Source: Poseidonibacter parvus
GTDB taxonomy: Bacteria > Campylobacterota > Campylobacteria > Campylobacterales > Arcobacteraceae
Reading direction: 5' to 3'
DNA: 64,000 bases
Assembly: GCF_001956695.1 (NCBI RefSeq)
Contig: NZ_CP019070.1
Span: 1,426,001 to 1,490,000, forward strand
Shown piece by piece: positions 4,124-10,412 of this stretch (positions are counted from its first letter, which is position 1; every line of letters starts with the position of its first letter). Position numbers and translations under genes: made by a program. The notes below the pieces were generated by a model that was not told where the DNA came from, did no database searches, and worked only from the letters and a program-made list of their open reading frames with translations.

Positions 4124-6790
4124 GTGGAGATTGTGTTATATATATTAATTGGTATTACTGTAGTTTTAGTGGGGATAATTATTTATTTAATTTATAGAAG
4201 AAAAAAATATACACGAGAAAGATTTGCTTTTTTCTCTTTATTTTTACTTTTTTCAATGGCTACTTTATTTTCAGCACATGTTTTTACAAATAATAGTTTT
4301 ATTATAATAGTATATAAAATACTAAACTATTATTTTAATTTAGAGTTGGAAATACCTTATACTGACTGGAGTGGTAAAATTTGGTCAGGATTGATATATT
4401 TTATTTTTGCATCAGTTATTATTTTTATTTCGAAGAATTGGCATGGAGCTAAAAGTAGTCAAGATGTTAAACTTGAAGAAATTCATAAAGAAATGGATTT
4501 TATCAGTGCTGCATTAAAGGGCTTTAAAAGTTTTAATATACCTATAGAAAATAAAAAAGATATTGAAAATCAAGAAATAGCTACTGATTTGACGTTTTTT
4601 AATACATCAAAAGATTGGCATACTCAAGTAAAAGAGTTTTTTATATTTATTAGTTCTCAATATAAAATAACATCAAAAGATTGGTACAGTGAAGAAAACT
4701 TTTATATTGGAAAATATGGAAATATTGATATTGTTATAGTATGTTTCTTAAATAAACCATCTCTTGAAGAAATTAATGAAAAAATACTTTTATCTAAAAA
4801 AAACTGTCCTGATAGGTCTTTTAAAAAATATATAATTGCAATACAAAATGGTGTAGCAGAAAATAAAACTATTGATCATACTGATTATACTATTGATTAT
4901 AGATATAAAGAAGAACTACTAAAAAAAATTGTTAATTTTGATGAATATTTTGATTTCTTAAAAAAAGAATTTTATGAAAAAGAAATAACATCAGGTGATA
5001 ATTTAAAACTTATGGATACTTATGTTAATCAAAAATCTTTTTTACATTTACCTGAAGGTAGTAAAAAGAAAAAACAAAAAAATATTGATAATACAGAAGA
5101 GTATATAATGAAATGGGTTAACAATAAACAAGTTGGAAAACATATATCTTTATTGGGTGAATATGGACAAGGTAAAAGTAGTTTATCTTTAAAAATTGCA
5201 AATAAATTAATTGAAGATGAGAAAAGTAGAATACCAATCATTATTGAATTAAGAGGAAAAAGCCCTAAAAATGAGACTTTATTGGATGTTTTAGCTAGTT
5301 GGGCAACTAGTTTTAATATTAATGCAAAAGCAATTGAAAAGCTACTAGAGGAAGGTAAATTATTAGTTATACTAGAAGGTTTTGATGAAATGGATCTTGT
5401 TGGAGATAAATATATCAGAAGGTTACATTTTAAAAGACTTGTTGAATTTATGAGGTATGAAAAGTCAAAAGTCTTAATTACTGGAAGACCAAACTTATTT
5501 TTAGATAATCATGAAATGGAAGAATTTTTAGAGTTAAATAAAGATAATAATAATTTGTTCTACTGTAATGCTTTAATATTAAAGCATTTAGATTTAAAAC
5601 AAATAGAAGATTCATTACGAAATATTGATAGTAAAACTAAAAATGAAATGCTAAATGTTTTAAAAAATGAAAATGAGAATGTTAATTTCAAAGAATTAAT
5701 ATCTCGTCCTTCCACGCTGTATCAAGCCAGTATTATATGGAATGATTTGGATAAGAAAAATATTAATTCAGCTTCAATAATTGATAAATTTATAAAACAT
5801 TCATACTTAAGACAAGAGGAAAAATTTATTACTATAGGAAGGACCGGTGTTGAATCTATTTTAACAGTTAAGGAAAGAGAATACTTTACTCTTGGTATAG
5901 CTGTCTCAATTATTAAAAGAGATAGTTATTCAAATCAAATTAGTAATTATCAATTACATAGGACGATTACTGAGCTATATGTTAATATTCCAGATGAAGT
6001 TAGTAATGATCATATAAATGGAATTTTATTAAAAAGAAGATTAGAAGATGATCTACATAAAATAGAATCTATTTTTAATGATGTACGAGCGTCCGGAATT
6101 TTTGTAAAAGATTTAAGTAAAAATAATTATTTTAAATTTGCACATAAGTCATTTTTAGAATATTTATTTGCATTTTATTTTACTCACTATAAGTACCAAA
6201 ATGAAATTTATTATACTAAAGTTGTAAACTGTATAACAAATTCTTTTAAAGTACAGGATATTTACAAAATAAAATTAACTGATGAAATTATTCAATTTAT
6301 ATCAGAATTATTATCTAAACAAGATAACTTAAATATTTCTGATGATGTATTAGCAAGAAAACTATTAAAAACAATACTTCCTAATAAAGTTTTTAATCTT
6401 TCACCAAATTTATTCCTTAATAAGTATTTTAGGTATTTTAATGATTTTATAATATCTATATTTATTAGTATAATCTTGTATCATTTATTTACTTATGATC
6501 ATACTCAATTATCAGGAGTTTATATTTTAATAGTATTATTAATAGGTACTCCTTTTATATATATAAAAAGAATTACTAGTTTAAATAGGATTAATCAACC
6601 TCTTAAAATATGGTATAAAACATGTAGTGTAAAAGTCCCTTATACTTGTATTTATTCAGTTATATGCGAAAAATCAATTGAATCTATTCTTGATGACAGA
6701 TATCTAAATAAAACTAAAGAATTAAGTAAAATTTTTAATGATTTAAAAAATAAAGAGATAAGCAAAATAATTAACAATACATCTGAGTAA
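4124..6790 (+). CDS. membrane-anchored NACHT/STAND NTPase, candidate antiphage protein
   Basis: This 888-residue protein starts at GTG. It has about three N-terminal transmembrane segments (about 4-25, 33-55, 88-106), a polar domain (about 150-290) that I cannot assign, and a NACHT-type NTPase domain. The P-loop is GEYGQGKSS at 345-353. The Walker B region is LLVILEGFDEMD, with GFDEMD at 419-424; Glu replaces the usual first Asp. A VLITGRPN sensor-like motif follows. The later FAHKSFLEYLFAFYF segment is the typical end of NACHT helical regions. Two more hydrophobic segments lie at about 775-822. Bacterial NACHT proteins are known antiphage NLR relatives, but function here is inferred. It lies between a polymerase remnant and a phage-type helicase/polymerase pair. 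Confidence 0.8.
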   Translation: MEIVLYILIGITVVLVGIIIYLIYRRKKYTRERFAFFSLFLLFSMATLFSAHVFTNNSFIIIVYKILNYYFNLELEIPYTDWSGKIWSGLIYFIFASVIIFISKNWHGAKSSQDVKLEEIHKEMDFISAALKGFKSFNIPIENKKDIENQEIATDLTFFNTSKDWHTQVKEFFIFISSQYKITSKDWYSEENFYIGKYGNIDIVIVCFLNKPSLEEINEKILLSKKNCPDRSFKKYIIAIQNGVAENKTIDHTDYTIDYRYKEELLKKIVNFDEYFDFLKKEFYEKEITSGDNLKLMDTYVNQKSFLHLPEGSKKKKQKNIDNTEEYIMKWVNNKQVGKHISLLGEYGQGKSSLSLKIANKLIEDEKSRIPIIIELRGKSPKNETLLDVLASWATSFNINAKAIEKLLEEGKLLVILEGFDEMDLVGDKYIRRLHFKRLVEFMRYEKSKVLITGRPNLFLDNHEMEEFLELNKDNNNLFYCNALILKHLDLKQIEDSLRNIDSKTKNEMLNVLKNENENVNFKELISRPSTLYQASIIWNDLDKKNINSASIIDKFIKHSYLRQEEKFITIGRTGVESILTVKEREYFTLGIAVSIIKRDSYSNQISNYQLHRTITELYVNIPDEVSNDHINGILLKRRLEDDLHKIESIFNDVRASGIFVKDLSKNNYFKFAHKSFLEYLFAFYFTHYKYQNEIYYTKVVNCITNSFKVQDIYKIKLTDEIIQFISELLSKQDNLNISDDVLARKLLKTILPNKVFNLSPNLFLNKYFRYFNDFIISIFISIILYHLFTYDHTQLSGVYILIVLLIGTPFIYIKRITSLNRINQPLKIWYKTCSVKVPYTCIYSVICEKSIESILDDRYLNKTKELSKIFNDLKNKEISKIINNTSE

Positions 6791-7041: not shown

Positions 7042-8385
7042 TTAATTTATAATTGGTTTAACATTGTTAATTACAATATCTAAAACTTCATTTTTCTTTT
7101 TATTTATCCAACCTGTTGTTTCATCATTGTAAATGATTATATTTGCACTGTTTTTATTTTTAAATGGTCTCATAGCTCTTCCTATGATTTGTTGTAAACG
7201 TGCTGTATCTTCAAAAGGAGGGTAGGCAGGACTTGCGCAAAATACATTTTTAATAGAAGGAATATCAGTACCTTCTCCTAGAAGTTTTGAAGTTCCTATT
7301 AAAACATAATCTGTAATTTTGTTTTCTGTCAAATCAGAAAATATCTCATTTCTTTGTTTTGCTTTTGTACTTGCATCAATATATAATACATTATAAGAAG
7401 ATGATAATTCTTCTTTCAATGTTTGTCCCAATTCAAGAGTATTGACTAAAACTACAGATTGATTAGACTTAAACTTGTTTCTTTCGAACTTTAGAGAATT
7501 TTTAATATCATTTAGTATAAATTCTTTTCTCTTTTTTGATTTATCAATATTTTTCTTAAGCATTCCTAGTTTTATATTAAAATCTAATGTTCGCAAGTAT
7601 TCTTGTTCTATATCGATTTTATAATTTGTATTTTTAAATCTTATATTGGGTTGTACTAAAAAGCCATTTTTATATAAATCAATAATATCAACACTTGCCC
7701 TCTCTTCTCCAACTAAATCATAAAGTTTTTGTTCATTTTTGATATTATTTCTATATGGTGTTGCAGTAAGACCATGTTTATACATAGCAGGAATTGAAGA
7801 TACAACGTCATAATAAACACTTGCACTAGCTTTATGCATCTCATCACAAATAATCTGTGAGTATTTATCTTCTTTAACTCTTTGTAATGTTGCTTCATTG
7901 TTTAATGATTGCCATGTAGTGATTAATATAGGAGCTCCAAACTCTTTTTTTGAAGAGCTAAGTTCACCTATCATTGATGGGTCAATATCTAAAATATCTT
8001 GAAATCTTTTTTTTGTTTGCTTTACTAAATCATATTTAGGAACAATAAAAAGTGTTCTTATATTTCTTTTAGCAATTAAATATGCAGCTATGTTTGTTTT
8101 TCCAGAACCTGTAGGAGCGTAAATATAGCCTGTAAGTGTAGTTCTTGTAAATTTATCAATACAAGCTTGTTGGAAATCTCGTGCTTGAAAATTCTTAATA
8201 TTAATAGTTGCTTGATTTTTTATAATTTGACACTTATCTCTAGCGGGTACATTTACGTTCCATTTTATATCAGTACAAATATTCTTAAATTTACTTAACA
8301 ATGACAAGACTTCGCCATAAGGGAAGATTTTTTCAATAGTTCCATCTATTAGTTTAACTTGTGAGCCTATTATTAATTGCATCAT
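7042..8385 (-). CDS. superfamily 2 DEAD/DEAH-type helicase, phage-like
   Basis: An ATP-dependent helicase of 447 residues. Motif I is PTGSGKT (91-97), motif II DEMH (181-184), motif III TATPYR (207-212), and motif VI QIIGRAMRP (399-407). The GTSKLLGEGTDIP block of motif V precedes motif VI. The overall form resembles the UvsW/restriction-type SF2 helicases carried by many phages. It lies 80 bases downstream of the family B polymerase on the same strand, so the two are probably co-transcribed and may act together in DNA replication, repair or defence. I see no nuclease or methylase domain. Confidence 0.85.
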   Translation of the reverse strand: MMQLIIGSQVKLIDGTIEKIFPYGEVLSLLSKFKNICTDIKWNVNVPARDKCQIIKNQATINIKNFQARDFQQACIDKFTRTTLTGYIYAPTGSGKTNIAAYLIAKRNIRTLFIVPKYDLVKQTKKRFQDILDIDPSMIGELSSSKKEFGAPILITTWQSLNNEATLQRVKEDKYSQIICDEMHKASASVYYDVVSSIPAMYKHGLTATPYRNNIKNEQKLYDLVGEERASVDIIDLYKNGFLVQPNIRFKNTNYKIDIEQEYLRTLDFNIKLGMLKKNIDKSKKRKEFILNDIKNSLKFERNKFKSNQSVVLVNTLELGQTLKEELSSSYNVLYIDASTKAKQRNEIFSDLTENKITDYVLIGTSKLLGEGTDIPSIKNVFCASPAYPPFEDTARLQQIIGRAMRPFKNKNSANIIIYNDETTGWINKKKNEVLDIVINNVKPIIN

Positions 8386-8465
8386 ATCTCCTAAGAATAT
8401 TTCATTTTTAAGATTATATGTAAAAAAATTCTAATATTTCAAAATGATAACAATTTGTAATGTTT

Positions 8466-10412
8466 TTAAAAGTCAAAGAGTGATTCTTGGCTTTTATTAA
8501 AGGGTTCTATGAGTTTATAAGCTTCTTTTACATAATAATTAAAGTCTAAAAACTCGTATGAAAAATCTTCTATATTATTACAAAGTTCTACTTTGTATCC
8601 TACGTTTATTCCTATTACTCTTTGTTCTGAATCTTTATTTAAAGGTGGTAGAATCTTTTTTAAAGGAAATCCATTTTTACTTATAAAATATCTAATAGTA
8701 TTAGATAAAGGTATGTAAGTCTTTTGTAGTGAGTATACTTTTTCAAGGACTAAGTCTATATTTTTTGTAGCTTTAAAGTTTAATAAAAAGTCATATTTAT
8801 TTCTATGATTATGAATAAACTCTTCAATTTTAATACCTTTTATTAAATATGCTTCTACTGCTTTTTGAACTACTAAAGAAGAGTGATTTTGATTCCATGC
8901 TAAGTCATATTTGTATGTACCTATTTTTTTAGCTTCGCCATTTTCTTTCAAAGCTACATAGTTATTAACATCTCTAATCCAAAGCTTTTCATATATTATC
9001 TCTTCTAGTTCTAATCCAGTAAAATCTTGCCATTTTTTTGAGATATCTTCATATTTTGATTTGTCTTTCTTTGCTATTTTAAAAGTAAGACCATCAGTAT
9101 TTGCTTGTATTAAAGTTACTGTTTGTATTTGCATTAGTTTTTCAGCAAGCATACACAACATCAACTGCCCATTAATCGTAATATCCAAAGTCATCTTGAA
9201 GTCATAAAAAGGACTAAACTGATTGTTTGTATCTCCATATGTTGAGTTTAGAGCTAGTTTTAGCATTTTGTTTTGAGAAGTACCTTTTTTATAAGAAAAT
9301 CTCAAATCTCGAATTTCTTTATATATATCAACAAACTCAATTCCAAGATGTTCTGGATATAAATTATTTTGAATTACAATAGATGGATAGTAACTAGCAA
9401 CATCAACATCTATTATTAAAAAATCATTACTTTTATCATAGAACTTACTCTCTACACTTCCATGTAAACCCCCAGTTCCAAAATAGAAAGTAAAACCTTT
9501 ATAGTTTAAATGTAAAGATTGAGCTTCATTTTTAGAGTTTAGTGTACAATAAGAGCCAAGTTCCCCTAGATTGTCTTGGCTAATATTTGAAAAAACTTCA
9601 TTCATAGAATTTGAATACTGCTTTTTTAGATACTTAAGTAGACTTTGAAACTCTACTGTTTCAAAATTAATATAGTCAAAGATAATTTTGTTAAAGTCCA
9701 AGAAGTTTCTAATAGTCTGTTTTGGTTTACCATTTACATAACATATATCTTTTCCAAGTTTTTCTTCAAGATTACGAATAAAGTATCTTTTACCTATTTT
9801 TGTATCACTGTAGTTGAGCATATTTTCATTGTATTTTAAACTTAAGTCTTCTCTAAACTCTATGGCTTCTTTTGAGTGCTCGAAGAATAATAGCGTAGCT
9901 TCTACATCGTGTTTATTATACTTAATTAGATTGTCAAAGTCATTTGGTTTTATATCTTCACCTATTTTAAAGTCCAAATCTTCAATAGAATCCATACGCA
10001 TATTTACTTCTAATACTTTTAGGCTAACTCTCGTAGCTTTATAGTCAAAATTGTGTATTTTCATAAGATCAAGTTGATTGATTTTTAAAGTATTTTTATC
10101 TTCTTTGTAAATGATATTGTTTTTGATAAGTGAATCTGCAAAAAGAAAAACTTTATAAACTAGTTCTTTTATAGAATAACTCTTTGCATTTTTATAAATA
10201 AACTGTAGTACTGCATAATCAAAGTTTAGGTTATTGTATCCTACTAATATCTTTTCATTTTTACTAAGCCACTCAAGTGTTTTTAAAAACTTTGTTAAGT
10301 CGTTTACTCTGGAGCTTAGTTCAAATACTCTTAACTCTTTATTTTGTGCATTTTGAATAACACAAGTGAATATATTAGGAAAGGTTTCTACATCATAAAT
10401 ATAATATTTCAT
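8466..10412 (-). CDS. family B DNA polymerase with 3'-5' exonuclease, phage-type
   Basis: The 648-residue product has an N-terminal DnaQ-like proofreading domain: ExoI DVE (7-9), ExoII NNLNFD (60-65), ExoIII YNKHD (165-169). The polymerase domain has motif A DVDVASYYPS (335-344), motif B KLALNSTYG (385-393) and motif C ANTDG (437-441), where Asn replaces the first of the usual two Asp residues. A GGLHGS segment (314-319) links the two halves. The short size and thumb resemble phage polymerases rather than bacterial Pol II. It starts 15 bases after the M32 peptidase stop and precedes the helicase. A decayed relative lies at 3714-3963. Confidence 0.87.
   Translation of the reverse strand: MKYYIYDVETFPNIFTCVIQNAQNKELRVFELSSRVNDLTKFLKTLEWLSKNEKILVGYNNLNFDYAVLQFIYKNAKSYSIKELVYKVFLFADSLIKNNIIYKEDKNTLKINQLDLMKIHNFDYKATRVSLKVLEVNMRMDSIEDLDFKIGEDIKPNDFDNLIKYNKHDVEATLLFFEHSKEAIEFREDLSLKYNENMLNYSDTKIGKRYFIRNLEEKLGKDICYVNGKPKQTIRNFLDFNKIIFDYINFETVEFQSLLKYLKKQYSNSMNEVFSNISQDNLGELGSYCTLNSKNEAQSLHLNYKGFTFYFGTGGLHGSVESKFYDKSNDFLIIDVDVASYYPSIVIQNNLYPEHLGIEFVDIYKEIRDLRFSYKKGTSQNKMLKLALNSTYGDTNNQFSPFYDFKMTLDITINGQLMLCMLAEKLMQIQTVTLIQANTDGLTFKIAKKDKSKYEDISKKWQDFTGLELEEIIYEKLWIRDVNNYVALKENGEAKKIGTYKYDLAWNQNHSSLVVQKAVEAYLIKGIKIEEFIHNHRNKYDFLLNFKATKNIDLVLEKVYSLQKTYIPLSNTIRYFISKNGFPLKKILPPLNKDSEQRVIGINVGYKVELCNNIEDFSYEFLDFNYYVKEAYKLIEPFNKSQESLFDF

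Follow-up and report, generated by a model that had tools for sequence, protein, structure and literature searches.

Bacterial NACHT proteins related to NLRs are a known kind of protein, and they are thought to be the source of the animal NLRs, which break membranes via separate adaptors and gasdermins. Animal NLRs such as NLRC4, NLRP3 and NOD2 resemble the protein described here in the fold of their NACHT, helical and winged-helix parts; however, they lack membrane helices and carry leucine-rich repeats where our protein has a membrane hairpin.

In the known NACHT defence proteins, an N-terminal effector and a C-terminal sensor flank the NACHT switch, and their role in anti-phage defence is established (PMC12169576). 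The bNACHT proteins (Kibby et al. 2023; bNACHT25, PMC12169576) share with our protein a central NACHT module between variable N- and C-terminal parts. Among their experimentally examined examples, those of clade 6 carry PD-(D/E)XK nucleases and those of clade 14 SNaCT domains (PMC12169576), whereas the family of our protein has membrane helices at both ends and a predicted inactive REase-like domain. Also similar are the NACHT proteins with an NA-iREase1 domain (PF22722), for example L004 and L006 in our comparison, which have a Pfam-named inactive REase just upstream of NACHT and, by profile, the same linker. Unlike our protein, they have NNH5 helices at the start and WD repeats at the end, and sequence profiles show no match between their core domains and ours. 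For inactive REases that are coupled to NTPases, a role as nucleotide sensors has been proposed (PMC12839542). Finally, DS-8, a metallophosphatase-NACHT protein found with DefensePredictor (PMC13092281), is likewise a NACHT-type single-protein defence system, and its NCBIfam model matches two of our family members weakly; its effector is a metallophosphatase, and the accessible part of its description mentions no membrane helices (PMC13092281).

Here we describe a family of NACHT proteins, which we call TM-NACHT, whose members probably protect their hosts from phages through an action on the cell membrane. As a discrete family spanning several phyla, this architecture is absent from Pfam, NCBIfam, PADLOC-DB and the literature we surveyed; the paper that defined the bNACHT proteins, which lies outside this comparison, may describe a clade bearing transmembrane (TM) helices.

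A predicted NACHT NTPase with membrane segments at both ends

The window, a stretch of 64,000 nucleotides from Poseidonibacter parvus, lies within a complete genome of 2.87 Mb. At 4124..6790 on the + strand, which also holds for every part of the gene listed below, it carries a stand-alone gene for a membrane-anchored NACHT NTPase of 888 aa. The gene has a GTG start, and inspection of the sequence revealed an AAGGA ribosome-binding motif directly 5' of it. A sister species (G099; same locus as L027) encodes an orthologue of 890 aa with 78% identity that begins at the same residue. Codon changes between the two sequences gave a dN of 0.13 and a dS of 0.79, which indicates purifying selection on the gene. 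Between these sister species dN/dS was about 0.17 overall, about 0.35 in the middle domain and about 0.23 in the C-terminal membrane region, while the NACHT and winged-helix parts changed slowest.

Searching the window with PADLOC returned nothing relevant, and neither PADLOC nor NCBIfam holds a model for the protein. Since the middle domain has no Pfam model either, and the protein none in PADLOC-DB 2.0, proteins of this type are likely missed by current defence annotation. Searches of PDB sequences gave no usable match, and Pfam hits to Ntox50 and GT87 fell below the cut-off and were discarded.

The protein runs from three N-terminal TM helices through a middle domain and the NACHT core to a C-terminal membrane hairpin. 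NACHT is its best Pfam match, yet at 20.6 bits it stays below the curated cut-off of 26.7; the same model matches all 22 members of the family alignment described below (best 2.4e-9). The core (residues 320-545; 5081..5758) contains a Walker A motif, GEYGQGKS (residues 345-352; 5156..5179), a Walker B motif, KLLVILEGFDEM (residues 412-423; 5357..5392), and the motif KVLITGRPN (residues 449-457; 5468..5494), whose R455 is invariant in the family. Walker A (GxxGxGKS/T), Walker B ((D/E)GFDEM) and the GR-motif arginine after the fourth strand are conserved among the members and intact in the window protein. A helical and winged-helix part follows (residues 546-735; 5759..6328), with the motif FAHKSFLEYL at 672-681. 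The structure predicted for the whole protein (pLDDT 78, pTM 0.61) superimposes on NLRC4 with a Z of 22.9 and an rmsd of 4.9 over 389 residues, on NLRP3 with a Z of 22.2 and on NOD2 with a Z of 20.8, the aligned spans for the three being 357-389 residues. By this model, the protein is a NACHT/STAND NTPase with the NACHT-helical-winged helix fold of NLRs.

A sequence-only reading of this DNA had already called the protein a NACHT protein with membrane segments at its N- and C-terminus; the Pfam matches in all 22 members and the NLR fold of the predicted structure agree with the first point, and the three N-terminal and two C-terminal helices with the second, membrane helices at both ends being a conserved trait of the family. 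It had also considered the Walker B motif unusual. Its reading of the residues, LVILEGFDEMD, is correct, but they are no oddity: the first acidic position is E in 11 of the 22 members and D in the other 11, and we reject the motif as a sign of altered activity.

The membrane segments and their topology

The three N-terminal helices comprise residues 3-24 (4130..4195), 31-54 (4214..4285) and 82-104 (4367..4435), and the first is followed by a positively charged RRKKYTRERFAF motif that is conserved in the family. All 22 genome members have three N-terminal hydrophobic segments, the third being weak in L039, L040 and L042, and the bundle, including its RERFAF motif, is well conserved. The C-terminal hairpin (residues 767-818; 6422..6577) is formed by TM helices 4 and 5, at about 767-790 and 797-818. 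Every genome member has at least one hydrophobic segment near its C-terminus; by hydropathy, the number of TM segments there ranges from one to about seven among the relatives, and their composition is variable too. The region is of low complexity and rich in G, A, L and V in L042, L031, L033 and L035. In these four and in L046, the C-termini contain low-complexity repeats of the GLGLGL, AGAFAGA and LLLFLL types, which suggests repeat expansion of membrane segments.

In the family alignment, the loop between TM1 and TM2 contains 93 K/R in 306 residues, against 33 in 623 for the loop between TM2 and TM3. By the positive-inside rule, this charge distribution predicts a cytosolic NACHT module and an N-terminus on the outer side of the membrane; the orientation of the bundle is a proposal, no solved structure serving as its template. 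P-loop NTPases of the KAP type, with TM helices inserted in the P-loop domain, were considered and rejected: here the TM helices lie outside the NTPase core, within which the highest hydropathy of the window protein is 1.02, and Pfam gives no KAP match.

TM-NACHT proteins form one clade that crosses phyla

Scanning genomes directly with the single window protein revealed no relatives, whereas a scan based on an alignment, with one genome per species, recovered the family. Among the matches listed, the relatives align almost end to end with E values from 0 to about 1e-66, and generic NACHT proteins follow at 1e-23 and weaker. Bacterial genomes yielded at least 21 relatives of full or nearly full length, and a contig of a Mu-like prophage (L138) one more; the family is probably larger. 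Our 22-member alignment combines the window protein with 19 full-length or nearly full-length relatives and the more distant L048 and L049; the arrangement of three TM helices, middle domain, NACHT and C-terminal membrane region is common to all 22.

A maximum-likelihood tree that also included 21 other NACHT proteins groups the TM-NACHT proteins in one clade (support 100/99, or 100/98 when L048 and L049 are included), and none of the 21 others has the TM layout. Within the clade, members from at least seven phyla (Campylobacterota, Bacteroidota, Planctomycetota, Bacillota, Cyanobacteriota, Chloroflexota and Pseudomonadota) stand in mixed order, which argues for horizontal transfer. L048 and L049, both from Campylobacterota, form a more distant sister branch with about 20% identity that keeps the TM-NACHT-TM layout.

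Close to the host, the gene is rare. It is present in 2 of 104 genomes of its own family, and the count is 2 of 397 at the level of the class as well as of the phylum, a patchy distribution rather than that of a core gene, as the defence role proposed in the sequence-only reading would have it. The nearest relative carrying the gene is a Campylobacterota genome. A tblastn search with the window protein found only generic NACHT proteins on plasmids and nothing in phages, and further scans of viral contigs gave no second phage-borne member besides L138.

Most copies lie among ordinary genes, and a minority in phage or defence settings

At the window locus, the gene is on its own, flanked by msrA on one side and by a pair of helicase and PolB-like genes on the other, and further ordinary genes nearby encode a GGDEF protein and an M32 peptidase. 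The pair (7042-10412), consisting of the helicase and a 648-aa PolB-like protein without a Pfam match, is found in most of the genus beside variable cargo; it is possibly an old replication cassette of a phage or mobile element. The helicase itself is present in 7 of 10 genomes of the genus, at 90-95% identity. In G099 the TM-NACHT orthologue lies 2.8 kb beyond the helicase, adjoining genes for an ion channel and a DUF2779 protein, with an integrase-like gene nearby. The DUF2779 protein (L027:6783-8357) and an unassigned 321-aa protein (L027:1742-2707) both lie near the orthologue and close to the integrase-like gene. In another genome, the genes around the cassette include a sensor kinase and a chemotaxis receptor.

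Because the neighbours of the cassette differ between genomes, we consider this a variable site and not a clear defence island. A defence island at this locus was not supported, given how widespread the PolB-like and helicase genes are in the genus and the sensor kinase and chemotaxis receptor found there in the other genome. The earlier reading had placed the gene in an accessory island with decayed and phage-type genes that fitted defence. The accessory hotspot stands, with the conserved PolB-like/helicase cassette adjoining it; a clear defence island is not supported, and ordinary genes lie beside the gene as well.

The survey of neighbours in other genomes, which the same reading had proposed as a check, supports its expectation in part: one copy lies in a Mu-like prophage and two related copies in BREX loci, but most lie among ordinary genes, defence-type neighbourhoods being the minority. 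In L046, from Chloroflexota (L046:2-8517), the BREX operon starts its visible order with brxC and a gene for the N-terminal half of PglX, after which come TM-NACHT and a gene for the C-terminal half; the halves correspond to positions 1-661 and 662-1264 in a single PglX model. The related L044 (L044:75-4182) has the same upstream half of pglX, and its contig ends before the downstream side. On the viral contig L138 (L138:905-14032), TM-NACHT lies on the opposite strand between the minor head and head protease genes, in the head module of a Mu-like phage that also includes terminase, portal, major head and neck genes. A gene of this type, transcribed against the phage structural operon, occupies a position that is usual for cargo genes serving the lysogen. 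The L138 member has three N-terminal and three C-terminal TM segments, and a quick tree places it within the family clade (98% SH-aLRT), where its branch is long.

The rare and patchy distribution, the mixing of phyla, the copy in a Mu-like prophage, the two copies in BREX loci and the literature on NACHT defence proteins together lead us to infer an anti-phage role. A membrane STAND regulator with a task outside defence, such as stress signalling or the control of transport, would accord with the finding that in most genomes the gene is alone among ordinary genes, and STAND proteins do include transcription regulators. Nevertheless, we regard this as quite unlikely, given a gene that is so rare and patchy, whose tree mixes phyla and which is carried by a Mu-like prophage and within BREX loci.

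The middle domain is predicted to have an inactive REase-type fold

The sequence-only reading could not place a region at about 150-290. Better bounds are about 160-262 for the middle domain (4601..4909), followed by a linker at 263-312 (4910..5059), and the predicted fold suggests a placement. Folded alone on 22 sequences, the middle domain reached a core pLDDT above 90. Its structural matches were individually modest, with a best Foldseek E of 0.017 and a best Z of 7.5, under the level of 8 below which we do not trust a single structural match. The best 50 matches include EndoMS, TIP26, EcoT38I, FokI, DdmD, McrC and AspBHI, as well as Can2, XisH, Hjc, Shedu, a tRNA splicing endonuclease, the N-terminus of Avs4 and RPB5. 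Almost all 50 we take to be PD-(D/E)XK, RPB5 or TSEN-type folds or close relatives of these. From the uniformity of this list, and the lack of a conserved catalytic acid or lysine, we read the middle domain as a likely inactive fold of the REase type (PD-(D/E)XK-like), as modelled.

Sequence profiles gave a more complex picture. Pfam does not match the middle domain to NA-iREase1 (PF22722), yet middle domain and linker together scored 41 against the NA-iREase1 profile, compared with at most 15 for unrelated controls. When the alignment was split, the linker carried the match, and the core scored 12-16, about the level of the controls. As the linker alone accounts for the score, we set aside homology of the middle domain to NA-iREase1 on this basis, and the claim of a PD-(D/E)XK fold thus draws on the predicted structure. 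The linker profile is common to other NACHT proteins bearing REase or iREase domains, and in plasmid-borne NACHT proteins Pfam places NA-iREase1 at the position matching the middle domain. Common descent of the two cores is plausible.

Could the domain instead be an active PD-(D/E)XK nuclease effector, as in the clade 6 bNACHT proteins? The resemblance of the predicted fold to PD-(D/E)XK proteins would suit this, as would the related soluble NACHT protein L005, which keeps an ECK motif at that position. However, the alignment of 22 members has no conserved D, E or K in the two core strands (193-198 and 203-208), and we consider an active nuclease very improbable. Because the catalytic residues are absent, the domain should not be a killing enzyme on its own; it is likely a sensor or adaptor.

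A model for membrane-based defence

With slightly better than even confidence, we read the window protein as an NLR-like switch of the STAND/NACHT type that is embedded in the membrane and most likely protects against phages by abortive infection, oligomerising into a membrane-disrupting effector. In our model, the resting protein would be a monomer with bound ADP. Its three N-terminal helices and its C-terminal hairpin would anchor it in the inner membrane, with its N-terminus on the outer side and both the NACHT module and the inactive REase-like domain on the cytosolic side. A signal of infection would trigger nucleotide exchange; the sensor is probably the fast-evolving REase-like domain, the C-terminal membrane region or both. 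The NACHT modules would then assemble into an oligomeric ring. This would cluster the N-terminal helix bundles into a pore or some other breach of the membrane barrier, and the cell would no longer support the phage. We assign the effector role to the N-terminal bundle because the known NACHT defence proteins carry their effector at this end; the effector could instead be a partner protein. For sensing, the REase-like domain appears to be the best candidate and the C-terminal hairpin the other.

The TM parts may also be only anchors or sensors. With the N- and C-terminal membrane parts in this role, the protein would monitor the membrane, for instance for entry of phage DNA or for damage by a holin or superinfection, and it would act via the REase-like domain, such as by binding nucleic acid, nucleotides or a partner. 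In support, the C-terminal position is that of the sensor in NACHT proteins (PMC12169576) and is occupied here by a variable membrane region, the REase-like domain evolves at about twice the overall dN/dS of the protein, and the pairing of inactive REase with NTPase is the one for which nucleotide sensing has been proposed (PMC12839542). Against it, the N-terminal position is normally that of the effector and holds a well-conserved bundle, and the REase-like domain lacks catalytic residues. We consider this alternative rather unlikely, less so than a role outside defence.

The membrane-disrupting switch has a stronger form, which we put forward tentatively and hold to be somewhat less probable than not: a bacterial NLR in the membrane that is sensor and pore-former in one, in which NACHT oligomerisation assembles a transmembrane pore from the protein's own N-terminal helices and a dead restriction-enzyme domain is reused as the phage sensor. 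If true, this would be a one-protein inflammasome-plus-gasdermin, and a widespread bacterial form in which one protein brings its own membrane helices would link sensing to membrane attack far more simply. Separately, the same genome encodes a second NACHT protein (L008; G000:C1:1046359-1046877), whose open frame of 1932 aa scores above the Pfam cut-off.
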